Shown here one piece after another: positions 7,462 to 45,546 of a stretch of 64,000 nt of DNA. The notes beneath the pieces are model-generated. The model saw only the letters and a program-made list of their open reading frames with translations. It was not told where the DNA came from and did not search any database. The stretch covers positions 124,001 through 188,000 of the forward strand of contig OZ025867.1 in the NCBI GenBank assembly GCA_964019425.1, given 5' to 3'. This stretch comes from Flectonema sp. DT1601. Taxonomy: Eukaryota > Euglenozoa > Diplonemea > Diplonemida > Diplonemidae. The translations under genes were made by a program, and so were the position numbers. Position 1 is the first letter of the stretch, and every line of letters begins with the position of its first letter.

Positions 7462-7791
7462 AAAAAAAAAAAAAAAAACTTGAAAAAAAACAAACTAACA
7501 AAATAGGACTACATATGTTACTGACCGACGTCTGCTGTTTTCTCTTACTGTGCCCGTTGATATTTCGCAATGTTATAGAAGTTTTCGTCATTTTGGTGTG
7601 TTTTCTGTGATTCAGTCGTCTAATAAGTATACGAGATAACCGACCGTGTATATTATTTTTTTCTTTCCCCCTTACACAGGAATATTATTATGATTCACTC
7701 TATTTTTTAATTGATGTACAAAAAAAAAAAAAAAAAAAAACATTTAAAATATCATTTTCCTCCTCATATTCAACAGAATGCATGTATGAGA

Positions 7792-8169
7792 CTTGTTATC
7801 GATACCTTGTTATCGATACCTTGTTATCGATACCTTGTTATCGATACCTTGTTATCGATACCTTGTTATCGATACCTTGTTATCGATACCTTGTTATCGA
7901 TACCTTGTTATCGATACCTTGTTATCGATACCTTGTTATCGATACCTTGTTATCGATACCTTGTTATCGATACCTTGTTATCGATACCTTGTTATCGATA
8001 CCTTGTTATCGATACCTTGTTATCGATACCTTGTTATCGATACCTTGTTATCGATACCTTGTTATCGATACCTTGTTATCGATACCTTGTTATCGATACC
8101 TTGTTATCGATACCTTGTTATCGATACCTTGTTATCGATACCTTGTTATCGATACCTTGTTATCGATAC
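7792..8169 (+). repeat. 14-bp minisatellite, 27 perfect copies
   Basis: The unit CTTGTTATCGATAC is repeated 27 times without a visible mismatch (378 bp). Each unit holds the 8-bp palindrome TATCGATA. Because 14 is not a multiple of 3 and the + strand lacks stops, all three + frames are open and read the same 14-residue peptide repeat. The array ends 72 bp before the aminotransferase ATG, so it lies in the promoter, a 5' UTR or a 5' intron. There are no spacers, so it is not a CRISPR array. Confidence 0.97.
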
Positions 8170-8241
8170 TTGTACTCGTTGTTGTTAGTTTCAAGTTGCT
8201 TTATTAGTATTTCAAGTTACTCTCTATTTTTTTCCATCAGC

Positions 8242-9135
8242 ATGTTGAGACTGAAAGGAATCAGTCGGAGGTTAGGATCAAGAAACATGTCAACGATAAA
8301 TATGAAAGAAGAATTTATAAAAGGAAGAGGTGGAATGGTAACTGACGGATGCTTCACAAAGGGATTCAGTGAACTGATAACATCGAAGGATATTGATTGT
8401 GTCGTGTATGAAGTGATTCGAGTTTTTGATGGAAAACCGCTTTTCTTAGCTGATCACATAAACAGATTAGAAGCTTCGTTACAACACTCAGGATGTTCAA
8501 CTGTTAGTTCTACTGCTGTTGCTGTTCTCACTGCAACTGAGTCGGTTAAAAAATTAGTTGACCTTTGCAATCTTAGGTATCAGAATATTAAAATACTATT
8601 AATACCTTCAGAAGATCCATGTAAACCCCCAAAAGTTATAGCGTATCCAATAGAGAGTTTTTATCCACCCATGTCGCATTACAATAATGGTGTTAAGGCT
8701 TCATTTTTACGTCATGAACGAAAGAATCCAAACGCAAAAGTAGTTGACGCTTCTTTAAAAAAAACAATGTCTAATGCAATGACAGACGGTGTCTTTGAGC
8801 TACTTCTCGTTAATGATGATGGTAAAATCACAGAGGGAAGTCGTAGTAATGTTTTTTACATAAAACATAATTGTGTTTATACTGCTCCTGATTCGTTGGT
8901 ATTACAGGGTATTACTCGGTCTCGTATTATTGAGTTGTGTGAGTCTCTTTGTGTTAGAGTTATTTATCAGACTCTCCCAGTGAAGGATTTACTCGAGGCT
9001 GATGCAGTTTTCATCTCTTCAACTTCTAACGGTATTCTCCCAATTGGAATATTGGAAGGACGTCATTACGACATTCGTTCTTGTGAAACGTTGAAAATAC
9101 TAATGAATGCGTTCTTCGCTAAAGAAATGCTTTAA
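8242..9135 (+). CDS. PLP-dependent class IV aminotransferase (branched-chain/D-amino-acid/ADC lyase fold)
   Basis: 297 aa, single exon. I chose ATG 8242 (MLRLKGISRRLGSRNMST) because the open frame upstream is only the minisatellite. A pyrimidine tract plus CAG ends one base before this ATG. Fold-type IV signatures: CVVYEVIRVFDGKPLFLADH with INRLEASL near residues 55-85; Lys166 in the NAKVVDASLKK segment at the spacing expected for the Schiff-base lysine, about 20 residues before the conserved GVFELLLVNDDGKITEGSRS-NVF block; and a C-terminal STSNGILPIG loop. The family transaminates branched-chain or D-amino acids or splits aminodeoxychorismate; the substrate cannot be fixed from sequence. The Arg/Lys-rich, acid-free N-terminus could be a mitochondrial presequence (inference). 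Confidence 0.88.
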   Translation: MLRLKGISRRLGSRNMSTINMKEEFIKGRGGMVTDGCFTKGFSELITSKDIDCVVYEVIRVFDGKPLFLADHINRLEASLQHSGCSTVSSTAVAVLTATESVKKLVDLCNLRYQNIKILLIPSEDPCKPPKVIAYPIESFYPPMSHYNNGVKASFLRHERKNPNAKVVDASLKKTMSNAMTDGVFELLLVNDDGKITEGSRSNVFYIKHNCVYTAPDSLVLQGITRSRIIELCESLCVRVIYQTLPVKDLLEADAVFISSTSNGILPIGILEGRHYDIRSCETLKILMNAFFAKEML

Positions 9136-14300: not shown

Positions 14301-14475
14301 TTGGGCGATAAGAGATCATCTTGAAGCGATAAACTCACGTGACGTGTCGAGGAGAAATATTCAATGCTTCGAGTTATACGTGATGTATATTGGATTGTTA
14401 TCTCCTGAGGCCATTCAAAAAAATAATCGGCAGCTTCTCTCGCTGATATTGCCGTCACACAATAGGTCGGATTGA
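11384..14475 (+). CDS. HPS1: HPS1-like protein, BLOC-3 subunit (3 exons)
   Basis: join(11384..12563, 12697..13338, 13454..14475), 947 aa; both introns are GT-AG and join G|GT codons in phase. In animals HPS1 with HPS4 forms BLOC-3, a guanine-nucleotide exchange factor for Rab32/38 on lysosome-related organelles. Homology is clearest in the C-terminal third: CPGLMHFIFIDRT (human FPGLVHFIYVDRT), the VAKGYTESLWGG...YYHRIWVE block (human LQKGYTTLLFQ...YFLWFE), and NIQCFELYVMYIGLLSPEAI (human VRCYELLALHLSVIPTDLL). DRDLVHCLVFVNGKLACCH followed by a STDVYLLAAYVEGLFVLQDG segment across the first junction looks like a longin strand-helix unit. The N-terminal ~390 residues are long and unlike animals, and exon 2 ends in an acidic, Ser/Pro-rich linker. 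HPS1 identity is inferred from remembered family sequence, not from a search. Confidence 0.75.
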
Positions 14476-18385: not shown

Positions 18386-18590
18386 GTTTTTTAAAAATAC
18401 TTATTTTTTTTAATAAAAAAAAAAACACTTACTTTTTTTTTTTTTTTTTTTTTTTATTACCCCCATTCTTTTTTTTTTAATGGGAAAATGGGATTATTCT
18501 CGGCTCAAACCTAATAAAAAAAAAAAAAAAATAACTATTTTCTTATATCAGTTCACCAACAAAAAAAAAAAAAAAAAAAAATTGAATAAA

Positions 18591-21500
18591 ATGAAAGGGA
18601 GTAATCGAACGGAGGGAAACACACCTCCAGAAACCCCAAAGACGCCTCCAGGCAGACACAGATCCATAAAAACGGGAATGACTGACGAGCAGATTGTTGA
18701 TAAAGAACTTCGACTTGTTAATTGGATTGTTGATTACCCAAAAGTTTGGATAGGAAGCTGTTTTATTATGTTCTTGATCTTAACAATTATTGGTTTTGTT
18801 GTTGTTGGATTTAAGATTTCAGATCAAGAAATGGCTGCTCGTTATGACTGGAGGACAGAACGACGTGATGCCGTTCACAGAATGAGAGAAGCCATCGAAG
18901 AACAACCCAACGGTATAAATAAACCTAACACTCCAAGGGAGCTTATCAGAACTGAACAGATATCTTCTTTTCATTTTATTTATAACAATGACGATGACCA
19001 CGTCTTTACTGTTGCGATTGCTCAGTTTATGAAACAAACTGAAGATAGACTTCTAGCAGACCCTGAATACAGCAATCACTGCATGATTCAGTGGCTACCT
19101 GGAACAGCGAAGTGTCCCGGAATGGACTGTCCATGGTACCGCACCAACTGGGACTACACAAGAGGAGCTCCTATGGTAGATGGCTCGCAAATGATTTGTT
19201 CTCCACCCACATCACTTGCGTATTATTTTTACAACACGAGACTGGCGATAAATATGCCGATTTTACAAAATGGAGAAGAATTCTACACGGAATGTAATCT
19301 ATCAACTAACTACACGTGGTGTGTTAATAACGCTGTACCTGTCTACTTGACTCAACTAGCCAATGGCAGGACTTATACTGAAAACGCAGCAGACATTGAA
19401 AACGGAGGAATTGAACCAACTCAACTACAGATCGATGCGTACATTGGCTATGCAGCTCTTGCGAGATCAGAGATGGTGTGGTTAAATATCTTCTTTGATA
19501 AGACATATGGTAATCCACCAAAACCAAACACATGTACATCAACAAGAAGTAAAATAGATTTTGGAGGACCACGTGAATTAGTGAACCCGACAAGATATGC
19601 ATCAACAAGATGTCAGTTACAAACTACTATCGCGACGTGTGAACAAGTTGTTGGATGTTCTTGGACGGAGTACGCAGGAATTCGAATGAACAGAACTGCT
19701 TGTCAGCCAAGTCAATACAACTATGTGAGTGCACTCCAAGAAGGTGATATCAACGAGGATCAAGTCGATGACTTCGGTAAGTGGGCGAAAGACTTCACAT
19801 CATTCTTTGAAGATAGCAGTGGTCCTGACACAGATTTATACTTCTTCGCCAACGGAGTTCTCTTTGACAGATTTCTTGAAATTGTTGCGAGAGATTCCTT
19901 ACTGGCAATTCTTTCATTCTTGTTTGTTTATTTATACCTTCAGATTCACACTGGTTCATTCTTCTTAGCGACTCTTGGTATGATTCAAGTAATTATGCCA
20001 TTCTCAATGGGTTACTTTGTGTACAGAGTTGTGTTTCAAATTAAAGCCTTTTACGGATTGTCGTCATTGGCGTTGTACATCGTACTCGCCATTGGTGCTG
20101 ATGATATCTTCGTCTTCATGGACAATTGGGTTCAGGCTGGAATTCGACCAAGAGCTGATAACTGTACTTATATCAAAGGAAGAATGGCTCATGCTTGGAA
20201 GATTGCTGGTACTGCGATGGGAATCACTTCTATGACAACAATGGCTGCTTTCATCGCGACAATGACGTCTCCGTTGTTAGAAATCGGATTGTTTGGGTTG
20301 TTCGCTGCTATTTTAGTATTCTTCGATTACTTGTTGGTTATGACGTTCTTTGCTGCTGCTGTTGTTATTCATCACCGTAACTATGAACATACAATTGGGT
20401 GTTGTTGTTGTGGAAATACTCTTGCTGGAGCATGGTGTAACTGCTGCACATGTTTCTCAACTGTATTAAATGAAGGCAATGAGAACGCTGTAGTAATCGC
20501 TCCTGATGTTGATGATAAGTGTAGCAGCAGTAGTTCCAGCAACGGAGTTTTTACTGTTCCTCCAAGACCTAAGATCGAATGCATGCAAACAATGCTTGTA
20601 GAACCTCGCAGTTGTGAAACTCTCGAGGATGCTCGTCAGAAATTAGGAACCTCACTTGATATTGGTACAGGTGGTCCTACTACTACAGCCATCCCTTCAC
20701 CAGATCATAAGGAACAGTTGCATAACGCAGTTGCACAGGATCCGACTTTCAAGTATTCTCGTATTGTTGGTATTGTTCTTCTCGTGATTGCTATTATTCT
20801 TTATGTATCTGGATTCGCAAGTTTACAAAGTGATCACAGTACTGGTTATGATAAAGTACTCACTTACAGCGCTGTGATTATCTTCGGGCTAATTACATTC
20901 AATGCTGCAATGAATGCGTTTAAAACTGCTCGTGATAGACGTGTTGAAATTGAAGGGAATTCACCAACAGCTTCAAACTTTATGGTGACTCACATGGCAC
21001 CGTTTTTATCTGGAACGAGTGGGATTGGATCTCGTTGGTTTATCAGAATTATACCTGGAACAATATTACTAGGTGTGTGGGTAGTGTTGGTTATCCACGC
21101 ATTCAAGCTTGACTACACCAGTAAGAATGAACAGTGGCTTCCTGATTGGCATCCATTACAAAGGTTTATGGATTCTTCAAAAGATGACTTTGTTGCGACT
21201 GATACCGAAAAGGTTCAGAGTGTTCAGATTGTGTTTGGTATGAATGTTCATGAGCCAATTGATAGGTCAGGAACAGATAAATACGACACTGCTGATAAAG
21301 GAAAACCTGTGTTCTCAGAATGGTCAACAAAACAATCGGATTTATCATCTGAACAGTTTCAACAGTTTTTACTCGGATTTTGTGATCACATTCTCGAGAC
21401 AACCTCCGCAGGTATGCCACTTCAGAGAACGATGATCAACGCACGTTCCGACCCTAGACAAGGACTTGGTGATCAAAATTGCTTTATAAGGGGACTGAAA

Positions 21501-22529
21501 GTTCACGTTGAAAATTTAGGAGGGGTTTTTCCCATCCCCCAAAATAACTATTTGTCAACGGTATGGGAATTCTCAAAGGAACAGTCTCAAGAAAAACAAA
21601 TACTCGCACCGTATGAACAATTCTATGACAAGGTTATGTTTAAATTTGAAAATGGAAACGACCAAGATCCGACAGGTATAGAAGCCGTGCTGTTGGAATT
21701 TAACACAACTTTAAAACGATTTGGAAATGCCTACGATGAAATCACAGATTGGTTTGGTGCTTGGGAAGATTACATGGACGGTGTAAAGATTCAACAATAT
21801 CCATATCAACAATCATTTCCGATTGCCTCAACTACATGGTCAGGTCGTATCCTTCATTCATCTGATGTTTGGGTATGGATGAGAACACAATACTTATTAG
21901 TAAGCGGTGCCATCACTGGAACATTAGCAAGTCTGGGTCTCGCTACTTGTATAATTTTCTTAGCCACGTTAAATGTAATTATTGCTTTGTTTGTACTCCT
22001 TGAACTGTGTGGTGTCGTTGGAAGTACGTTAGGTCTAACCTACCTCTTAGGATGGGAATTAGGTATGGTTGAATCAGTTAGCATTACCATATTAGTTGGG
22101 TTATCTGTTGATTATGTTGTTCATTTTGCTGTTCATTACGGACATGTTAGGGTTCATTCAAAGTCTGATACTGGCCCAAGTGAACGTCAGCGTCGAGTCC
22201 ATGAAGTAGTTTCTGACATGGGTCCGACAGTTCTCGGTGGTGCCGCGACATCTATAGGTGCGTCATTAGTTTTAGTTTGTACTTGGATTCAGTTCTTTTA
22301 CAAATTTGGTATCATTTTTCTTCTGACCATTTTATTTTCATATCTGTGGGCTATGTTCTTCTTCTTACCGATGTTGTCTTTCTTTGGACCAGAACAAGAA
22401 TTTTTAAGTTTACGACCTCTCCTCGCAAAATGCTTACCAAGCTGGTTTGGAGACGAAACCAACCAGGTGGCCGACGGAGTCGTCGATCCCGAAGAAGAGA
22501 TGAAGACAAAGGAAGAGGATTTGAAATAG
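18591..22529 (+). CDS. Dispatched/Patched-like RND transporter with sterol-sensing domain, paralogue A
   Basis: 1312 aa, single exon. ATG 18591 was chosen because the open frame upstream is only Lys homopolymer. Layout of the Patched/Dispatched superfamily: cytosolic N-terminus, TM1 ~52-76, a large Cys-rich extracellular loop (CPGMDCPWY), a TM2-TM6 sterol-sensing block from ~430 (LAILSFLFVYLYLQ) with the proton-relay-type motif GADDIFVFMDNW at ~501, a second loop, and TM8-TM12 with GLSVDYVVHFAVHY at ~1169. Acidic residues in both TM4 and TM10 are the RND signature, so an ion-driven lipid or lipoprotein exporter of the plasma or endomembrane is expected (family inference). A Cys cluster (CCCCGNTLAGAWCNCCTCFS) at ~604-623 may be palmitoylated. 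The C-terminus is acidic (PEEEMKTKEEDLK). The stop is TAG, with no readthrough-like context. Confidence 0.9.
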   Translation: MKGSNRTEGNTPPETPKTPPGRHRSIKTGMTDEQIVDKELRLVNWIVDYPKVWIGSCFIMFLILTIIGFVVVGFKISDQEMAARYDWRTERRDAVHRMREAIEEQPNGINKPNTPRELIRTEQISSFHFIYNNDDDHVFTVAIAQFMKQTEDRLLADPEYSNHCMIQWLPGTAKCPGMDCPWYRTNWDYTRGAPMVDGSQMICSPPTSLAYYFYNTRLAINMPILQNGEEFYTECNLSTNYTWCVNNAVPVYLTQLANGRTYTENAADIENGGIEPTQLQIDAYIGYAALARSEMVWLNIFFDKTYGNPPKPNTCTSTRSKIDFGGPRELVNPTRYASTRCQLQTTIATCEQVVGCSWTEYAGIRMNRTACQPSQYNYVSALQEGDINEDQVDDFGKWAKDFTSFFEDSSGPDTDLYFFANGVLFDRFLEIVARDSLLAILSFLFVYLYLQIHTGSFFLATLGMIQVIMPFSMGYFVYRVVFQIKAFYGLSSLALYIVLAIGADDIFVFMDNWVQAGIRPRADNCTYIKGRMAHAWKIAGTAMGITSMTTMAAFIATMTSPLLEIGLFGLFAAILVFFDYLLVMTFFAAAVVIHHRNYEHTIGCCCCGNTLAGAWCNCCTCFSTVLNEGNENAVVIAPDVDDKCSSSSSSNGVFTVPPRPKIECMQTMLVEPRSCETLEDARQKLGTSLDIGTGGPTTTAIPSPDHKEQLHNAVAQDPTFKYSRIVGIVLLVIAIILYVSGFASLQSDHSTGYDKVLTYSAVIIFGLITFNAAMNAFKTARDRRVEIEGNSPTASNFMVTHMAPFLSGTSGIGSRWFIRIIPGTILLGVWVVLVIHAFKLDYTSKNEQWLPDWHPLQRFMDSSKDDFVATDTEKVQSVQIVFGMNVHEPIDRSGTDKYDTADKGKPVFSEWSTKQSDLSSEQFQQFLLGFCDHILETTSAGMPLQRTMINARSDPRQGLGDQNCFIRGLKVHVENLGGVFPIPQNNYLSTVWEFSKEQSQEKQILAPYEQFYDKVMFKFENGNDQDPTGIEAVLLEFNTTLKRFGNAYDEITDWFGAWEDYMDGVKIQQYPYQQSFPIASTTWSGRILHSSDVWVWMRTQYLLVSGAITGTLASLGLATCIIFLATLNVIIALFVLLELCGVVGSTLGLTYLLGWELGMVESVSITILVGLSVDYVVHFAVHYGHVRVHSKSDTGPSERQRRVHEVVSDMGPTVLGGAATSIGASLVLVCTWIQFFYKFGIIFLLTILFSYLWAMFFFLPMLSFFGPEQEFLSLRPLLAKCLPSWFGDETNQVADGVVDPEEEMKTKEEDLK

Positions 22530-26931: not shown

Positions 26932-29900
26932 ATGACTTTGGCACAGGGTTATTACGAAAACCCTGGGGGAGGGTTGCAAACAAATGCAGGACCTGCTTGT
27001 GAGATGAACCAACAGCAGTTTGGTAAACAAGCTATTTCTGACGGAATACCAGATGAGATCTCACCAAAGGGAAGACATCGTGATGTTAATTGTGGAATGA
27101 CTGATGAAGAGATCGTTTCTAAAGAATTAAGAGTAACGAACTTCATAGTTGATTACCCAAAGACTGTATTGGGATGCTGTGGACTTGCTTTCTTTGTGTT
27201 GACTGTCATCGCATTCGCAGTCATCGGGTTTAAGATCAGCGGCTCAGAGCTACGTGACAGAAATGACTTTCGCAGTCAACGTAGCGATGCGTACGATGAG
27301 TTGGTCGATTTGATTGATGTTCAACCGAATGGGTTACCTGTCTCTAATGCTGGAGATAATGAAGAGTTGCTTAGGGTTAATTCACTCGCATCATTCTCAT
27401 TCATCTATCACGGTGATGGTAAAAACGTTTTCACCGCAGACAAAATTGCTTTCATGAGAACTGCGGAACAACATCTTGAAAACGATGACGAGTTTAAAAA
27501 CCATTGCGTCTTATCCTGGATACCTGTTACTGCAAAGTGTCCTGGGTATGACTGTCCTTGGTACCAAGAAAACTGGGACTACACTGGTGCTAATCCTATG
27601 CATGGCAGTAAGTTGATATGCTCCGCAAACTTTTATTCAATTTCTTGGATTATGTTCAATACTCGTATTGTACATCCGACACCTGTCGATGTTAACGGTG
27701 ATGAGCTTTATAATGTTTGCGATTTAAAAACTGATTTAAACACCTGTATAAATAATGGTACACTCGCATATATAGCGTTGTTGAATACCGGAGAGACTTA
27801 CGATCAGAAGAGGGTAAAAGTTGAGGGAGGAGGTATCGCACCAACGGATGATGAAGTTTTGAGTTTTATAAAAATATTTGACAGGTTGAGAAGGCTTCCA
27901 AACTATTCGTATTTAACTCCCTTCTTTGATAAACAATTTACAAACAACTCTTTCACCAAAGATGATCCTAGGTACTACGATTCGTACGTAACTAGATCGA
28001 GGGTTGCTTTCGGTGGACCAATCGAAAAGACTGATCCAAAAAACATCAATCCACCTTGTCAGACTCGTTCTGTGAATGACTGTACTGAAGGATGTCTTTG
28101 GTCTTCTCAAGCTGGAGCAGAATTAGACCAAACTGGATGTATCCCAAATCAATATGTCGAGGCAGGAGATAGAGATTCGGATGCCCAGGAGGATCAATTG
28201 TCAGATTTCACCAAATGGGGTAAAGATTTTACAAACTTCTACGATGATATTTCAGGTCCTGTTGACGTCTTGTACACAGCTAACGGAGTCACTTTTGAAA
28301 AATTCTTAGAAATCATCATGAGGGATGCAATGCTCGCAGTCATTTCTTTCGTTTTCGTATTTTTATACCTTCAAATCCACACCAATTCATTCTTCTTGGC
28401 AATGCTTGGTATGATTCAAGTCATTATGCCATTTCCGATGGGTTACTTCATGTACAGAGTTGTGTTTCAGATTGAAGCCTTTTACGGATTATCAACATTG
28501 ACTTTATACATCGTACTCGCCATTGGTGCTGATGATATCTTCGTCTTCATGGACAATTGGGTTCAGGCTGACATTAAGCCAAGAGCTGATAACTGTACTT
28601 ATATCAAAGGAAGAATGGCTCATGCTTGGAAGATTGCTGGTACTGCGATGGGAATCACTTCCGTAACGACAATGGCTGCTTTCATCGCGACAATGTCATC
28701 TCCGTTGTTGGAAATCGGATTGTTTGGGTTGTTCGCTGCTATTTTAGTATTCTTCGATTACTTGTTGGTTATGACGTTCTTTGCTGCAGCAGTTGTACTG
28801 TACCATCGTAATTATGAAAACACGATTGGATGTTGCTGCTGTGGTACCACAACACTTGGGAAGTTCTGTGACTGCTGCACCTGTTTCTCAGTATTAGAAA
28901 TTGGAGGCCATCCAACAGATGAGTTGGCTTGCATGCAATCACGACTATCAGCTCCGAGAACCTTTGAAACTATTGATGAAGCGAGAGCAGTTCTTGGACC
29001 ACTACTCGATCATACTGTGAAGGGATCTCCACAAAAGGAACAGGCTATGTTTGATCCGGAGTCTGTGAGATCAATCATCCGCCCGATGAATATTTGCTTC
29101 TATATTTTATTAGTAGCATCCGTTGCCTTATACTTAGCTGGATTCATTGCATTGCAAACTGACCACAACAGTGGTACCGGCTTCATAAAGTGGGTCCTGT
29201 TACTGATCATCGCATTAGCATTATTCTGTGCATCTCTTAATGCGTATAAGTCAGCAACAACGAAGAAGAATTCTCTTAAAGAAAGGTTTGATGAACCAGG
29301 ATTAATGGCTAAACATGTAGCACCATACCTGTCAGGAAGTAACGGTAAACCAGTTATATATAGAATGATCCCATCGTTCATCTTGGTTGCTATTTGGGTT
29401 GTTATGGTCATCCAAGCGGCTAAGTTACATCCGACTACAAAGAACGATCAGTTTTTACCTGACTGGCATCCAGTCCAGAGATACATGAACTCAGCTCATA
29501 ATGACTTCCCTAGTAATACTCAGGATTTCGTCTGGGGGGTTAATGTTGTGTTTGGACTCGATTCGGAAGACCCGATTGATCGAAGTGGAACTAACAAATA
29601 CGAGTCGGATGAGAAGGGAGTTCCAGTCTTTACAAACTATCCAACAAAGCAAACAGATTTATCATCGACGCAATTTCAAAATTTTGTAGTTGCTCTGTGT
29701 GATGAGACTCTGAAGCGTTCATTGACTGTTCCGGATACGTATTTACAGAGAACGGGTGTTGGGTCTCCACCTGAGGATCAGAATTGTTTGATGAAAAACT
29801 TTGCTGAATTTCAAAAAGAAAATAACAGAACTTTTCCAGTTCCTCCAAACGAGTTCTTGTTGTCGATGTGGAACTTTACGTCAGCTCAGAGTAGAAGAAA

Positions 29901-30786
29901 GAATATCGAAAGAATTCAACCATTCGAAACAGTTCATAACAAGGTGTTGTATGATTTTGGAAATGGAAATGGAAATGATCCAACAGGTATCAAAGCTGTA
30001 TTCCTTCAGTTCAACACTACTTTAAAACAATTTGGAAATCCTTACGAAGATATCGTCGACTGGTTCGATTCTTGGGACGATTGGCTTTCTGAAATTAAAA
30101 CGCGAAAGGCTCCCTGGGTCCAACAAATATATCCAACGTCATCTGACTTTCCATGGGAAAGTGGAATGATTCACACAAGTGGTATCTGGGTGTGGATGAA
30201 CACTCAAAAACAACTTGTCAGCGGAGCAGTCACGGGTACAATTATTTCATTGGGATTGGCGACGTTTATTATCTTCGCTGCGTCGTTGAATATTATTATT
30301 GCTGTCATTGTATTTGTTGAGTTGGTTGGTGTTGTTGGTTGTGTCTTGGGGACTGCATCCCTTCTAGGCTGGGAACTTGGTATGATAGAAAGTGTCAGCA
30401 TCACAGTACTAGTCGGGTTGTCAGTAGATTATGTTGTTCACTTTGCAGTACATTACAATCACGTTAAGGTCGGATCTGGTAGCAACACTACTACTGAAAG
30501 ACAGAGAAGGGTTCATGAGGTCATCGCTGATATGGGACCCACAGTCCTCGGCGGTGCCGCAACATCAATGGGTGCAGCTATGATCTTATTGTGTACTTGG
30601 CTGCAGATATTTTATAAGTTTGGTATCTTCTTCTTGTTCACGATCTTGTTTTCATACTTTTGGGCAATGTTCTTCTTCCTTCCACTTATGAGTATCTTTG
30701 GTCCGCAGAATGAATTCATGTCATTACGACCAGTGTTAGCTAAATGTTTTCCAAAGTTCTTTGCTAAAGAGGAGACGTCGGATTGA
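26932..30786 (+). CDS. Dispatched/Patched-like RND transporter with sterol-sensing domain, paralogue B
   Basis: 1284 aa to a UGA stop, single exon. ATG 26932 follows CTCTCAG by 2 nt. Same architecture as paralogue A: GRHRDVNCGMTDEEIVSKEL near the N-terminus, TM1 at ~76-100, the CPGYDCPWY extracellular motif, a sterol-sensing block with GADDIFVFMDNW (~531), a Cys cluster (CCCCGTTTLGKFCDCCTCFS, ~632-651), and TM10 GLSVDYVVHFAVHY (~1162). It most likely exports or moves lipids or lipid-linked cargo at a membrane (family inference). It arose with A by tandem duplication; a 280-bp stretch around TM4-TM6 is ~96% identical at DNA level while the rest is far more diverged. The UGA is followed by CGG, a hairpin and an in-frame extension (next two entries). 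Confidence 0.92.
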   Translation: MTLAQGYYENPGGGLQTNAGPACEMNQQQFGKQAISDGIPDEISPKGRHRDVNCGMTDEEIVSKELRVTNFIVDYPKTVLGCCGLAFFVLTVIAFAVIGFKISGSELRDRNDFRSQRSDAYDELVDLIDVQPNGLPVSNAGDNEELLRVNSLASFSFIYHGDGKNVFTADKIAFMRTAEQHLENDDEFKNHCVLSWIPVTAKCPGYDCPWYQENWDYTGANPMHGSKLICSANFYSISWIMFNTRIVHPTPVDVNGDELYNVCDLKTDLNTCINNGTLAYIALLNTGETYDQKRVKVEGGGIAPTDDEVLSFIKIFDRLRRLPNYSYLTPFFDKQFTNNSFTKDDPRYYDSYVTRSRVAFGGPIEKTDPKNINPPCQTRSVNDCTEGCLWSSQAGAELDQTGCIPNQYVEAGDRDSDAQEDQLSDFTKWGKDFTNFYDDISGPVDVLYTANGVTFEKFLEIIMRDAMLAVISFVFVFLYLQIHTNSFFLAMLGMIQVIMPFPMGYFMYRVVFQIEAFYGLSTLTLYIVLAIGADDIFVFMDNWVQADIKPRADNCTYIKGRMAHAWKIAGTAMGITSVTTMAAFIATMSSPLLEIGLFGLFAAILVFFDYLLVMTFFAAAVVLYHRNYENTIGCCCCGTTTLGKFCDCCTCFSVLEIGGHPTDELACMQSRLSAPRTFETIDEARAVLGPLLDHTVKGSPQKEQAMFDPESVRSIIRPMNICFYILLVASVALYLAGFIALQTDHNSGTGFIKWVLLLIIALALFCASLNAYKSATTKKNSLKERFDEPGLMAKHVAPYLSGSNGKPVIYRMIPSFILVAIWVVMVIQAAKLHPTTKNDQFLPDWHPVQRYMNSAHNDFPSNTQDFVWGVNVVFGLDSEDPIDRSGTNKYESDEKGVPVFTNYPTKQTDLSSTQFQNFVVALCDETLKRSLTVPDTYLQRTGVGSPPEDQNCLMKNFAEFQKENNRTFPVPPNEFLLSMWNFTSAQSRRKNIERIQPFETVHNKVLYDFGNGNGNDPTGIKAVFLQFNTTLKQFGNPYEDIVDWFDSWDDWLSEIKTRKAPWVQQIYPTSSDFPWESGMIHTSGIWVWMNTQKQLVSGAVTGTIISLGLATFIIFAASLNIIIAVIVFVELVGVVGCVLGTASLLGWELGMIESVSITVLVGLSVDYVVHFAVHYNHVKVGSGSNTTTERQRRVHEVIADMGPTVLGGAATSMGAAMILLCTWLQIFYKFGIFFLFTILFSYFWAMFFFLPLMSIFGPQNEFMSLRPVLAKCFPKFFAKEETSD

Positions 30787-30816
30787 CGGGGTAGGGTGGC
30801 GCTCCAAGCGCCATCC
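30784..30816 (+). promoter_or_regulatory. candidate stop-codon readthrough signal (UGA CGG plus 3' hairpin)
   Basis: UGA at 30784-30786 is followed directly by CGG. After a 7-nt spacer there is a hairpin: GGGTGGCGCT (30794-30803), loop CCA, AGCGCCATCC (30807-30816), 10 bp with one G-U pair. UGA-CGG with a stem-loop about 8 nt downstream is the known type II readthrough architecture of several plant viruses and some cellular genes (established knowledge). Activity here is inferred. Confidence 0.6.
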
Positions 30817-31038
30817 GACAGCGCTGCCAGTGAAATGAAGGCACTCCCAGCTTCGAACATGTACGCTGTTAACCCGCAACCTCTGCAGCCTCTGCAACCT
30901 CTGCAACCACTTCAGCCTTCAAGTCAGCAGCAGGGTTATATTCCACCTGGTTATCAGCCTCCACCTACAAACGGTTACCTTGGTTTTACCATGGGATATC
31001 CTGCTGCATCAGCACCTCCGAATGTGGGTAGGCTTTGA
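30787..31038 (+). CDS. in-frame C-terminal extension of paralogue B (predicted readthrough product)
   Basis: 83 codons in the same frame as paralogue B, ending in TGA at 31036-31038. The sequence is proline/glutamine-rich with PLQ repeats (codons 32-44 of the tail) and a tyrosine-proline tail. PPGY at tail residues 53-56 (nt 30943-30954) is a PPxY motif, the ligand of WW domains such as those of NEDD4-type ubiquitin ligases. The tract has balanced composition and no homopolymers, unlike intergenic DNA here, which argues it is coding. Alternatives: a separate small ORF (no ATG until codon 17), or a tail reached by an unrecognised splice. Paralogue A has no such tail. Confidence 0.55.
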   Translation, partial: RGRVALQAPSDSAASEMKALPASNMYAVNPQPLQPLQPLQPLQPSSQQQGYIPPGYQPPPTNGYLGFTMGYPAASAPPNVGRL

Positions 31039-32756
31039 GATCCTCGTCGTTACTGTTCTCTCTCCAAAAAAGGAAGGAACCAATATGAACAAAAACGTTC
31101 AACTTACGTAAATAAGAAAAGAATGGTTGCGTGAAGTGGAATTATTTTTTTCTTCTAGAGCTGAATGAACTTTTTTTTTTTTTAAAAATTTTTTTTAAAA
31201 AAGAATTCGAGTAACTTTCTCTTTAACTTGAATGCGATCACAGTACGGTCGCTAGAGATGGTACAAGTTTCTGCTTACCTGAATTGTCGACCTCTCCCTA
31301 ACCTATTATTTCTTTGTTAGACTTTTTTTTTTGTTGTCGACTTTTTTTTTTTTTTTATTACAATATTCACCTCGTGATGAATCGAATATTATTGTTTCTT
31401 GTTTTTTTTTATTTATTTTTCTACTGACGCTCGTTACAGGCTGTTTACCAGAAAAAAAAAAAAAAATGATGTGGATTTTTGGGAGAATTTTTTTTTTATA
31501 TACATAAAATCCACATCAGTCGCTGCATAAAATTTTTATTGTAACAAAATTTGTTAATTCATTTATTCTTAAATTTAAATCATCCGTACCTTCTGTCCCC
31601 CCAGCACACAATTTATTTTAAAAAAATTCAAAAAAATTACTGATAAAGTTGTGTCCGAAAAAAGTTTAATATTATTCTTAATTCATTTTTTCTCTCTCCC
31701 CTCCCCGTTTTTTTGGGGGGGATGTTTTTTTTTGTTGTTGTTCCCCATCTCTGGTAAACAGTTCGAGGAGTGCACTATTGTAACGACAAATTGCCTTTTT
31801 TTTTCCCCCCCCTCTTTTTTTTTCCATTATTTTATAAAAAAAAACTATGTGGAAAGGTGTATTTTTCTTTTCCTTAAAGCAATCTTCTTTTTCTTTGTTA
31901 TTTTATAGCTAAACAAAAAAGTGTGGATTTGCATTCTGGTTGAAAATTAGCAGTTCAGTGACACATTCATATGCGTCACTGTCTTTCCGAGAAACACCGT
32001 GAAAGTGTTTCGTCGTCCACTCCTTCCTTTTCATAGTTTTTTCTTTTTTTTTGGTTGAGAAAACAGAACGAAAAAAGGGAAGGAGGAAGAAAAGAAAAAA
32101 AAAAAACAAAAACTCACACAAGTCCAGGTTACGAACATTATTCCCCACATTTCAACTGGTTCATATGATATGTAGGAGATAACACTTTCCATTATATATA
32201 TCTGGTGATTTCTGAGGGAAAGAATGAAATAAAAATTTTAAAAAAAAAACGGTAATTAATTAACATTTTAGCGCTGTCTAATATCTAATTTAAGAGAACA
32301 CACAACATCAAACAATTACAATTATAAGGAGTGGTGTCCGAGAACTAGGTTCTGTCTCTGTTCCCATTGATCATGCAGCACTGCTGCAAGACCATTTGGT
32401 GCACAATTTTTGTTTCTTATTTTTTATGCCAGTTCAAAATTTTCTTTTTTGTGAGTGTATTCGTTGAGTTGTGTGTCAAGAGGTTTAAAAAAAAAAAAAA
32501 AAAAAAAATCCCGGAATAAATTTATCTATTCCTTTTTGTAACGTAACTACAGACGATAATTCGTTGGTCATCTTTCTTTTCTTGTTCTTTTTTTTTTTTT
32601 TTTTTTTTGGTGGGGCAGTAAATTGCTTGCAATAGTAAAGCCACTATTTTCTTTTTTTTCTTATTTATTTATTTATATATATTTTTTTATATATGTGTAG
32701 TCTCAAGTAACGCACAATCGGAAATTACAACGCTATTTTTAGCAGAAGAAACGACA

Positions 32757-32800
<44 letters not shown>

Positions 32801-33692
32801 TGGTTATTGTTTTTATCTCCCGAGTTCTTTACATTTAGTCGAAGGCAGACGCCTTGTCTGCCAGTTTTTCACTCGTTAATTATCATAAGTTTGATAGGTT
32901 GGTGTTTTTCGCTTATCACATTTCCCATCGTAGATTGTTTTGCGACGTCTGCAGAGGGGTTTATCTTTCCTTTACTAACATTACTGTTAATCGACTGTAT
33001 CATAAATTACTTATTGTTTATATTAAAAAAAAACAGTTAACACCCACATTATCTTTAGCAAAAATCTTTTCCCCTTCCTCGTTTTATAACTGGCGTAGCA
33101 GTTTGAATTGGCAGCAGCAGCAAACCTGCTTTTGTAAATTCATTCTGTTGGAGAATAATTAGAGGCAGCAGCCAATTCCATTTTTTCTAACTCGCTTTAT
33201 CGACTTTCCTTTTCCATCTTCTTGCCTTTGTTCTTTTTTTTTTTGCGTTTCCTTTTCTGTTCAGCATTGGGAAGTTAGAAAACTGATTTCTTTTTTGTAT
33301 CCTTCTACGTCACGTCGAGTTACATTAGAAATACAAATTGTTTTCTATGGGGAAAAAAAAAAAAAACTGCCGAGGGTTTTTGCGGCAAAAACGAGAGAAA
33401 GAAAAAGAGCTCTGCCTTTATAGGCAGCTTGTGTTGCTCGCTTCCCTGTTCCTACTTCAAGACTGTTCTTATTAACAATCTCGTAGGTTGTTGCTACGAT
33501 CTCTATTTATGTTTCTGATGTCGTGCAAAACTCTCTTCTTGGTGATCTCTAAAGTCTGCTTATCAGTGAAAGCTCTATTAGTTTGAATGGATTACTCACT
33601 GATTAAGTTTCCCTGTATTCGAGTGTTGGGCTCTGGCTGGTAATATGAGATTTGTTAGCATCTGTGGTTGTGAAAGATAGTTTTGTGGGGAG

Positions 33693-43389: not shown

Positions 43390-45546
43390 ATGGGATGTTC
43401 AGTTTCTAAAGTGGTTGTTACCAGAGATCATTATTACGCCGCTGCGAAGCCAAACGGATTCACCATTCACAACATACTAATTGAGGGTGGAATTAAAAAA
43501 GATAACAAAGGAATAATAAAAGAACTACACAACTACAAAATGGGTTCTTGCATAGGTCAAGGAGCCTTTGGAGAGGTTTATAGATGTTGGAATTTACTGG
43601 AAAAATCAAATTTACATAAAAATGGAACTCCGGGAGCTGTAAAAATAATAAAAATGCAAAAAAATTATATCAAAGAAATATCGATCCTCTCAAAAATAAA
43701 TCATCCGAATATAGTTAGATTACCTGAGTATATTGAAGACCCAGATGAGAAGGTACTCTATCTTATCATGGAGTGCCTGGGATCTGTTTTATGTAGTTGC
43801 TCACCCACCGGAGTTTTAAACGAATCCCCTTGGCATGAATCAAGAGCAAGAATGTATTTCTCACAACTATTCGAGTCTCTGGAGTATCTTCACACAATGG
43901 ATATCGCCCATAGAGATATAAAACCAGAAAATATTGTATTCACCCAGGATCGAACTAGCGTGAAATTAATCGACTTCGGTGAGTCTAGACACTTCAAAAC
44001 CGGTGATGACAGCTGTAAGCAAACCACTGGCACGCCTCAATATCACAGTCCGGAACTAGCTGTTGGAACAGGTGCTATGAATAGTGATAAAGCAAAGGAT
44101 GTGTGGTCTTTGGGAGTTACTCTTTATTTAGTTTTAGTTGGAAAAATTCCGTTTGGAGAAGGTGAGCAGAATCAATTGACTCTTTGGGAAAAGATTTCTC
44201 AAGATTCTCTGACATTTCCAAAAAACGGTCCACAATTATCACAAGAAGCAACCATCTTACTAGGCAAACTACTTGAGAAGAACCAGACTCTCAGAATAAC
44301 TCCCTCAGAAGCAAAAGACTCGAGCTGGATTACTGGTTTTGAACACGCTCCGAGACTTACAAACGTCGTTACTAACACAACAGTAGTCGAATATCCTTCA
44401 GTTGATTCACTGGAGATGAGTGGAACAACTGAATTAGTAAGTTCCTGTACACCTTTAGTTATAGATAGAAACCCTGGATGGAAATCAATATCAAAAACTA
44501 CAGACGCCAACTTATCAACACCACATACGAGTTCTATTGCCAGTCCTGTTCAAAAAGGTATTCGTGGGATTAAGAAACATATTTTTAGTTCACTTGAGGG
44601 TAGTGATAGCCTTGGTCATTCTCCAAGTAGTCCTTTGTCGTCGTTTAATTCAGAGAGTCCTAGTGCCGTTAGTTTAACGACTACTAGTTCGAGAAGGACT
44701 TCGTGTAATCATTTACCTAAAACTCCAAAGATTATGACTGTTGTATCAATACCAGCTCTTCATCATGAGAGCACCACGAGTACTCCAACCAACGCTGATT
44801 CCGTGAATTCAAGTCCGAATAGTTCGCCACGTGGAATGGCAGAAAGAACACCTGTATCTGATATTCTAACCATCGTCAGCCAAGATTGCCGATCAAAAAT
44901 CAAAATTCTCGTTGTTGACGATGATTTTCACCAACGTAACATCATTTCCAGAATGATGAAAGACCTGATTAAACCTCAAGTAGGAGTCACCTGCACTATT
45001 GACACCGCTGAAGACGGTGATGAAGCTGTCCGTGCTGTCTTAGACAGTAAAGAAGAACCTTATTCCTTAATAATACTTGACATTCACATGCCGAGAGTTA
45101 GTGGTATCGCTGCATCAATGGATATTAGAGTAGCTGAACAGCAATATGGACGTCTTGAAGTTCCTATTTTTGGAATTACATCAGATCCTTCTAAAAGTCT
45201 GAAAGACTTATGTAGAAAGGCAGGGATGCAAGCGTTACTAATGAAGCCTATTCTCCCAGATGTGTTGAGAGATATATTACAATGGACAAATATTCCTTGT
45301 AACAGGGATATTAATGATGTTTTCACTGCTACTAACGGATGGCATTCAAGTTGTAAAAAACACATTGAAAGATGTCGAGCCAGAGGATCAGCTACACCAA
45401 ACATCGATTGGTGGTACACGGTAGATTTCGATGACGACAGTAGTCTTTCTAGTGATTCTCCAAAGTCGAAAGTGCTTCCTCCTATTCTTCCACCTCCAAG
45501 TTTGACAAAGCGGTCACTTCAGCTTAGACAGGCCAATTGGACATAA
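43390..45546 (+). CDS. Ser/Thr protein kinase fused to a response-regulator receiver domain, predicted N-myristoylated
   Basis: 718 aa, single exon. N-terminus MGCSVSK has Gly2 and Cys3 for myristoylation and palmitoylation (inference). Kinase domain ~49-314: P-loop GQGAFGEVYR (56-65), AVKII with Lys85, KEISIL with Glu96, catalytic HRDIKPEN (174-181), DFG (195-197), a TGTPQYHSPE activation-segment end (213-222) and DVWSLGVTLYLVLVGKIPFG. All catalytic residues are present; it looks CAMK/LKB1-like. A Ser/Thr-rich linker (~320-500) follows, then a CheY-type receiver at ~505-635: KILVVDDD (D510, D511), phospho-acceptor Asp564 in LIILDIHMPRVSG, Thr597 in FGITSD and Lys619 in LLMKP. A 70-residue tail with a Pro patch ends it. 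No histidine kinase is seen nearby, so any phosphodonor must be encoded elsewhere. Confidence 0.92.
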   Translation: MGCSVSKVVVTRDHYYAAAKPNGFTIHNILIEGGIKKDNKGIIKELHNYKMGSCIGQGAFGEVYRCWNLLEKSNLHKNGTPGAVKIIKMQKNYIKEISILSKINHPNIVRLPEYIEDPDEKVLYLIMECLGSVLCSCSPTGVLNESPWHESRARMYFSQLFESLEYLHTMDIAHRDIKPENIVFTQDRTSVKLIDFGESRHFKTGDDSCKQTTGTPQYHSPELAVGTGAMNSDKAKDVWSLGVTLYLVLVGKIPFGEGEQNQLTLWEKISQDSLTFPKNGPQLSQEATILLGKLLEKNQTLRITPSEAKDSSWITGFEHAPRLTNVVTNTTVVEYPSVDSLEMSGTTELVSSCTPLVIDRNPGWKSISKTTDANLSTPHTSSIASPVQKGIRGIKKHIFSSLEGSDSLGHSPSSPLSSFNSESPSAVSLTTTSSRRTSCNHLPKTPKIMTVVSIPALHHESTTSTPTNADSVNSSPNSSPRGMAERTPVSDILTIVSQDCRSKIKILVVDDDFHQRNIISRMMKDLIKPQVGVTCTIDTAEDGDEAVRAVLDSKEEPYSLIILDIHMPRVSGIAASMDIRVAEQQYGRLEVPIFGITSDPSKSLKDLCRKAGMQALLMKPILPDVLRDILQWTNIPCNRDINDVFTATNGWHSSCKKHIERCRARGSATPNIDWWYTVDFDDDSSLSSDSPKSKVLPPILPPPSLTKRSLQLRQANWT

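Follow-up and report, generated by a model that had tools for sequence, protein, structure and literature searches.

At the 3' end of a Dispatched-like gene of the diplonemid flagellate Flectonema sp. DT1601, a UGA codon is followed by CGG, a stable hairpin and a long open stretch in the same frame. This raises the question of whether the UGA ends the protein or is read through by some ribosomes into a C-terminal extension. We analysed the locus within the window (the whole stretch of DNA under analysis, 64,000 nt) and searched the genome assembly, which comprises 89.5 Mb in 92 contigs. The features concerned are as follows.

18480..22529, + strand: tandem Dispatched-like paralogue, closed by TAG at 22527-22529, with neither signal nor tail
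26932..30786, + strand: Dispatched-like RND/sterol-sensing-domain protein, 1284 codons up to the UGA (Pfam, PDB, translation)
30777..30821, + strand: GT...CAG stretch of 45 nt with 7-nt complementary ends, a rival reading in which excision would drop the UGA in frame
30784..30786, + strand: UGA stop, putatively leaky (sequence; same aligned end in the relative P0003)
30787..30793, + strand: CGG (30787-30789) and the remainder of the 7-nt spacer (sequence)
30794..30816, + strand: 10-bp hairpin with CCA loop, putative readthrough stimulator (folding energy, rarity)
30787..31035, + strand: 83-codon tail rich in P, Q, G and Y, putative readthrough extension (codon likelihood; motifs common to relatives' C-termini)
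30832..30849, + strand: EMKALP, motif common to relatives' C-termini (EM in 13 of 24 relatives)
30943..30954, + strand: PPGY, PPxY-like, not conserved (none of the 9 long tails of relatives has PPxY)
31024..31038, + strand: C-terminal VGRL and terminal UGA at 31036-31038 (compare SGRL in P0014, SGML in P0017; L at the end of 6 of 9 long tails)

The gene and its paralogues

The protein encoded upstream of the UGA matched the Pfam families Sterol-sensing (1.2e-18) and Patched (2.7e-14), and its best solved relatives in the PDB were structures of Dispatched 1 (E 7.1e-41). By its sterol-sensing domain and these nearest solved relatives, the predicted product is a Dispatched/Patched-type RND protein. 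Among named relatives, those nearest are the Diplonema papillatum proteins annotated "Protein dispatched" (P0019, P0022 and P0023), at 53-56% over the C-terminal 185 residues. The main ORF ends in ...KFFAKEETSD, followed by UGA. The start of the tandem paralogue was placed at an upstream ATG, which may be too early. The six nearest Dispatched-like paralogues, namely five elsewhere in the genome and the tandem copy, were checked for a tail, and all are single ORFs that lack one. The first-pass annotation, which had called the gene Dispatched-like and the tandem copy free of both signal and tail, was right on both points.

Three closely similar Dispatched-like genes also stand in tandem at G000:C1:425,200-440,500 (L025-L027); two end in TAA and one in TGA, and their 3' flanks differ. 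Elsewhere in the window, a single ORF (43390-45546) combines a protein kinase with a response-regulator receiver domain. By eye, a tandem repeat encodes YRYLVIDTLLSIPC-like units in two overlapping frames (7611-8207 and 7711-9135), one of which continues in frame into an aminotransferase-like ORF.

The hairpin behind the UGA

Type II readthrough signals combine UGA with CGG or CUA, often with an RNA structure that begins roughly 8 nt downstream, according to the accessible text of PMC3542737. At this locus, UGA is followed directly by CGG, and the first paired base lies at +8. The hairpin has the arms GGGUGGCGCU-CCA-AGCGCCAUCC and 10 pairs, one of them G-U. The coordinates and anatomy that had been read by eye from the DNA (UGA-CGG, 7-nt spacer, 10-bp hairpin at 30794-30816, 83 open codons) are all correct, and the type II assignment made from them fits the definition as that text gives it.

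Folded alone, the 23-nt hairpin reached -17.0 kcal/mol (z -5.3), and 0 of 200 shuffles were equally stable. Wider folding windows diluted the signal, with z -2.9 for 42 nt (2/200 shuffles), -2.3 for 54 nt (5/200) and -2.0 for 121 nt (12/200). No equally stable structure was found at +5 to +12 behind 40 other ORF ends, which were those of ORFs of at least 250 aa from sampled loci of the genome; the best value among them was -7.1. Moreover, 23-mers folding as well as the hairpin numbered 0 in 20,000 from seven coding ORFs and 1 in 20,000 from the window. The hairpin is an exceptional outlier against this sample of the genome.

Within 30777-30819, AGCGCCATCCGAC repeats GTCGGA and TGGCGCT perfectly in inverted orientation, parted by 14 nt that contain the UGA; this arrangement hints at a possible origin of the hairpin by a template switch. 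Two ORFs of different genes in the window end in the identical nine bases TCG GAT TGA (14467-14475 and 30778-30786), and only the Dispatched one has CGG and the hairpin behind it.

Coding character and ancestry of the tail

Between the UGA at 30784-30786 and the next in-frame stop, UGA at 31036-31038, lie 83 sense codons. Dinucleotide shuffles of the GC-rich tail stayed open in 130 of 2,000 cases, and openness by itself is weak evidence for a coding tail. Scored against noncoding DNA, the tail gave +21.9 nats in frame, with -9.2 and -23.3 for the two remaining forward frames; the reverse strand reached +8.7 at best, with 3 stops, and the 3' flanks of five genomic paralogues gave -21 to -46, with 4-8 stops. 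When the null was given the base composition of the tail itself, the tail's frame scored only -3.5, yet this was the highest value among the six frames. By these statistics, the in-frame extension looks coding-like in a single frame, in agreement with the normal composition that the first-pass annotation had ascribed to it.

We then compared the tail with the uninterrupted C-termini of 24 relatives, four of which are paralogues of this genome. In 13 of the 24, EM stands 23-34 residues behind a conserved RP anchor; with readthrough, the distance in the window is 35, just beyond this range. Nine relatives have tails longer than 50 residues, several of which are rich in P, Q, Y and G, and six of the nine end in L. 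P0014 has the C-terminus RVGTLEVPTEMEAKVLPAS...SGRL and P0017 has RVGSLADQQEMDAKALPE...SGML, while the window's tail behind the UGA reads RGRVALQAPSDSAASEMKALPAS...NVGRL. Among 200,000 shuffled tails, EM..K.LP occurred near the start in 3, a G[RM]L end in 118 and both together in 0, for motifs that were chosen after looking at the data. In whole-tail alignments, only P0017 (15/500 shuffles as good) and P0009 (20/500) stood out; 12 of the 14 comparisons were not significant, which leaves motifs and position as the basis for proposing homology. A search with the tail by itself found no homologues.

On these grounds, the tail is likely homologous to the C-termini of the relatives. Its coding-like codons, together with EM..K.LP and the G-x-L end common to some relatives, suggest that what the UGA interrupts is probably an ancestral C-terminus. 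The tail had earlier been regarded as an added module; the match of its motifs to uninterrupted C-termini indicates that it is probably an old C-terminus that was cut off. In one relative, a single Trinity gene has an isoform with a long tail (P0014) and an isoform with a short end (P0010), suggesting that the tail may be optional there, or misassembled.

The tail contains one PPGY and one YLGF (YxxPhi); of the 9 long tails found in relatives, none has PPxY and two have YxxPhi. The domain matches listed include 66 for WW and 25 for HECT, and the nearest WW-HECT spacing among them on any contig, compared by eye, was about 17.8 kb; therefore, no NEDD4-like (WW-HECT) gene was seen. A role as NEDD4 substrate is not supported, since PPxY is not conserved and the matches listed contain no WW-HECT gene. 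The proposal that PPGY addresses the protein to NEDD4-type ligases thus finds no support here.

Stop position in the closest relative

The closest relative, P0003, comes from a relative's transcriptome and is 77% identical overall and 84% identical over the last 185 residues. Its record name is that of a Trinity transcript with a complete ORF. P0003 ends ...RCFPRVFGKNDNTD, in register with ...KCFPKFFAKEETSD of the window, at the same residue and without an indel, and like the window's main ORF it has no EM. Since this transcript-derived protein ends at the same residue, a stop is probably present there in the relative's mRNA, and is probably old. If the stop is common to both, the tail stayed behind it throughout their divergence. 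The comparison with orthologues suggested by the first-pass annotation, made here between protein sequences, gave a common end position.

P0005, P0008 and P0009 were omitted from the tree, as they look like copies of the genome's own paralogues from another assembly; by eye, their C-termini match L024, L023 and L025, respectively. P0001, the same gene as P0007, was also omitted. Branch lengths near P0003 are unreliable because P0004 looks like an assembly chimera carrying the N-terminus of P0003.

Candidate introns across the UGA

We scored every in-frame GT/AG pair whose donor lies in 30601-30785 and whose acceptor lies in 30787-31034, taking as reference 12 introns of this genome, themselves scored leave-one-out. 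The best pair removing the UGA scored -4.4 bits, while the 12 known introns scored 15 or more each, and an equal or better pair was present at 257 of 300 random coding places. These scores rule out a canonical GT-AG intron (U2-type; GTNTG donor, A-rich CAG acceptor) over the UGA. The 16 introns read in the genome are canonical, with GTNTG-type donors (one GTATT) and A- or CA-rich CAG ends; they were found by eye in gapped genes (without L039 and L043) and form a small sample that leans towards GT-AG. Their G/GTATG donors are like those of three of four Diplonemidae, and their A-rich acceptor is like that reported chiefly for D. japonicum (PMC12621601, accessible part). By the nearest named relatives and these intron features, too, the organism is very probably a Diplonemidae-type diplonemid.

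The main rival, to be taken seriously in this lineage and overlooked by the earlier reading, is a structured noncanonical intron, which we consider unlikely. Such an intron, for example 30777-30821, would hold both the UGA and the hairpin; all mRNAs would then encode ...KEET-AASEMKALPAS..., and the tail would be constitutive. Introns with paired GC-rich ends are known from diplonemids and euglenids, and those of hemistasiid diplonemids are mostly of this kind, with median lengths of 37 and 91 nt in two species, in the portion of PMC12621601 that is available. The candidate shares with these noncanonical introns its shortness, its GC-richness and its complementary ends near the junctions. It runs from GT to CAG, its 45 nt are a multiple of 3, and its removal takes out the UGA and creates no stop. 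Its ends, GTCGGAT and ATCCGAC, form a 7-nt complementary run that was equalled in 13 of 20,000 shuffles. Furthermore, several relatives encode an uninterrupted tail.

In contrast to the hemistasiid and euglenid introns, however, the candidate starts with GT and ends with AG, and every intron read in this genome is canonical. Diplonemidae introns are 97-98% GT-AG (PMC12621601), and none of the unconventional kind was detected in D. papillatum (PMC10161547), according to the accessible text of both sources. The splice-site score of 30777-30821 is -9.7 bits. No copy of the stretch, such as a mobile element would leave, was found elsewhere in the genome at up to 3 mismatches. The transcriptome-derived P0003 still stops at the UGA position, and excision would put EM at 20, outside the 23-34 of the relatives.

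Neutral persistence of the tail

The UGA may instead be an ordinary stop that truncated the protein, with the tail a 3' UTR that has not yet decayed and the hairpin incidental. Most paralogues have their C-terminus close to where the short form ends, and many relatives have short tails. Simulated neutral change kept the tail open in 59-37% of cases at 0.05-0.1 substitutions per site without indels and in 32-11% with indels; at 0.5 substitutions per site, the probability of an open tail fell to 0.03, and to 0.0001 with modest indels. A tail left untranslated behind an old stop would thus be prone to decay. These distances were assumed, and the real neutral distance between the window and P0003 may differ. 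We nevertheless regard an ordinary stop as decidedly improbable: P0003, 23% different, has the same end position, so that the stop is probably old; the tail retains its frame and the family motifs; and the most stable hairpin among the ORF ends compared sits exactly at the type II position.

It is very improbable that the tail is a separate small protein of 67 codons, beginning at the ATG at 30835 and made available by internal spliced-leader trans-splicing (CAG ending at 30821) or by reinitiation. In D. papillatum, essentially all mRNAs carry a spliced leader (PMC10161547, in its accessible text), and the CAG ends 13 nt ahead of the in-frame ATG. However, the frame is open right up to the UGA and not merely from the ATG, the segment is fused to the transporter in relatives, and the acceptor lacks the A-rich tract of the genome's cis-introns.

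UGA decoding in the genome

UGA terminates 11 of 41 long ORFs, some ORFs ending in introns. Among kinase-domain matches, taken from the best 130 of 635 candidates, 5/132 had internal stops; UGA was present in two, both of which are canonical introns. Internal stops were absent from the 19 ABC matches scored (of 153 candidates). The kinase, ABC, TCP-1, HECT and WW matches listed, which are the best-scored candidates, have few internal stops, with UGA in the two kinase rows only. The TCP-1 and HECT rows with internal stops carry UAA, and the TCP-1 introns were used in the splice-site set. No UCA tRNA was found among the 20 tRNAs read, which came from 63 scored matches out of 4699 candidates, and neither of the two tRNA-Trp(CCA) genes has a short anticodon stem, both having the ordinary 5 bp. 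These surveys gave no indication that UGA serves generally as a sense codon.

SECIS elements were sought in the window at gathering scores and in 30500-33500 at E up to 5, and none was found; we therefore reject selenocysteine at the UGA. That the UGA encodes selenocysteine or a generally reassigned sense codon is scarcely credible: the only eRF1 detected is altered at NIKS, GTS and Ser70, but a SECIS is lacking, UGA among the best-scored kinase matches is confined to two canonical introns, the ABC matches are stop-free, 11 of 41 long ORFs end in UGA, and the 20 tRNAs read include no UCA tRNA.

Besides Pelota, one eRF1 gene was detected, outside the window (L029:1411-2766; G000:C35, about 630,593-631,951). 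Stop recognition by eRF1 involves the GTS, Glu55, NIKS, Ser70 and YxCxxxF motifs, as described in the accessible text of PMC12153298. Compared with human eRF1, the protein has TATSIKS for TASNIKS and Ala in place of Ser70, and its GTS loop is changed and one residue longer; YxCxxxF, Glu55 and GGQ are conserved. In Blastocrithidia, the Ser70Gly change of eRF1 has been linked to UGA readthrough (PMC12153298, same part). The preprint PMC12440015, in its available text, describes S67 (yeast numbering, equivalent to Ser70) as critical for reading UGA and likens the Blastocrithidia change to the S67A of ciliates in which UGA is sense. The same position is thus altered here, as far as these texts go. 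Unlike in Blastocrithidia and those ciliates, UGA still looks like a usual stop in this genome, and the anticodon stem of tRNA-Trp is 5 bp in both genes. The altered eRF1, with Ser70 replaced by Ala and the other changes, may weaken the reading of UGA and so add to readthrough.

Discussion

Our analysis points to type II programmed readthrough, turning an old tail into a minor isoform, as the best reading of the locus, and we consider it rather probable. The observations in its support are the exact type II layout, the extreme hairpin, a coding-like tail in a single frame, the motifs of the family and the end position of P0003. The Dispatched-like transporter of this flagellate would formerly have ended in a cytosolic tail rich in P, Q and Y, and UGA, CGG and a very stable hairpin 8 nt downstream would now part the tail from the body of the protein. 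We infer that most ribosomes would stop at the UGA and release the 1284-residue form, and that a minority, aided by the hairpin, would insert a near-cognate amino acid and produce a form of about 1368 residues with the ancestral C-terminus (EMKALP ... VGRL). The tail would probably affect how the transporter is sorted or how stable it is; we do not favour a WW ligand.

The interpretation offered by the first-pass annotation stands in part. The Dispatched-like identity, the type II layout and the coding-like tail were sound, and a canonical GT-AG intron is excluded; the addressing to NEDD4 is not supported. Its minor isoform by readthrough remains our best reading, although it had overlooked that P0003 stops at the same residue and that eRF1 is altered.

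The same layout occurs in tobraviruses, furoviruses, pecluviruses, pomoviruses, some alphaviruses and coltivirus VP9, in which UGA-CGG (CUA in others) is followed by a stem-loop about 8 nt 3', as the accessible text of PMC3542737 describes. In contrast to these viral cases, the signal here lies in a cellular, nuclear diplonemid gene, its structure is a compact 10-bp hairpin, and readthrough is predicted. The extension resembles an ancestral C-terminus rather than an added domain. Readthrough genes of Drosophila, mammals and Arabidopsis, as portrayed in the literature available in part, have a leaky stop and a C-terminally extended minor isoform, as we propose here; our case, unlike those, is predicted from the nucleotide sequence of one species.

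A broader scenario, speculative and rather unlikely, is that the diplonemid lineage reads UGA weakly. Its sole eRF1 would have lost Ser70, the asparagine of NIKS and the GTS loop, UGA would be drifting from a stop to a conditional sense codon, and the Dispatched site would be one of a class of genes whose ancestral C-terminus is under translational control.

We found no report of translational readthrough in diplonemids in the literature as far as its text is accessible, and no paper on dispatched in diplonemids. If the 45 nt were spliced instead, the locus would harbour an intron of the hairpin type, unlike the canonical introns otherwise read in this genome. If programmed readthrough is true, diplonemids, which are among the most abundant marine protists, would possess a cellular gene with type II readthrough, and the locus would exemplify how a stop can confine a tail to a minor isoform under regulation. 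Combined with the altered eRF1, the locus would offer a testable case of a lineage that reads UGA in a relaxed way, beside the kinetoplastid Blastocrithidia, which has reassigned UGA.
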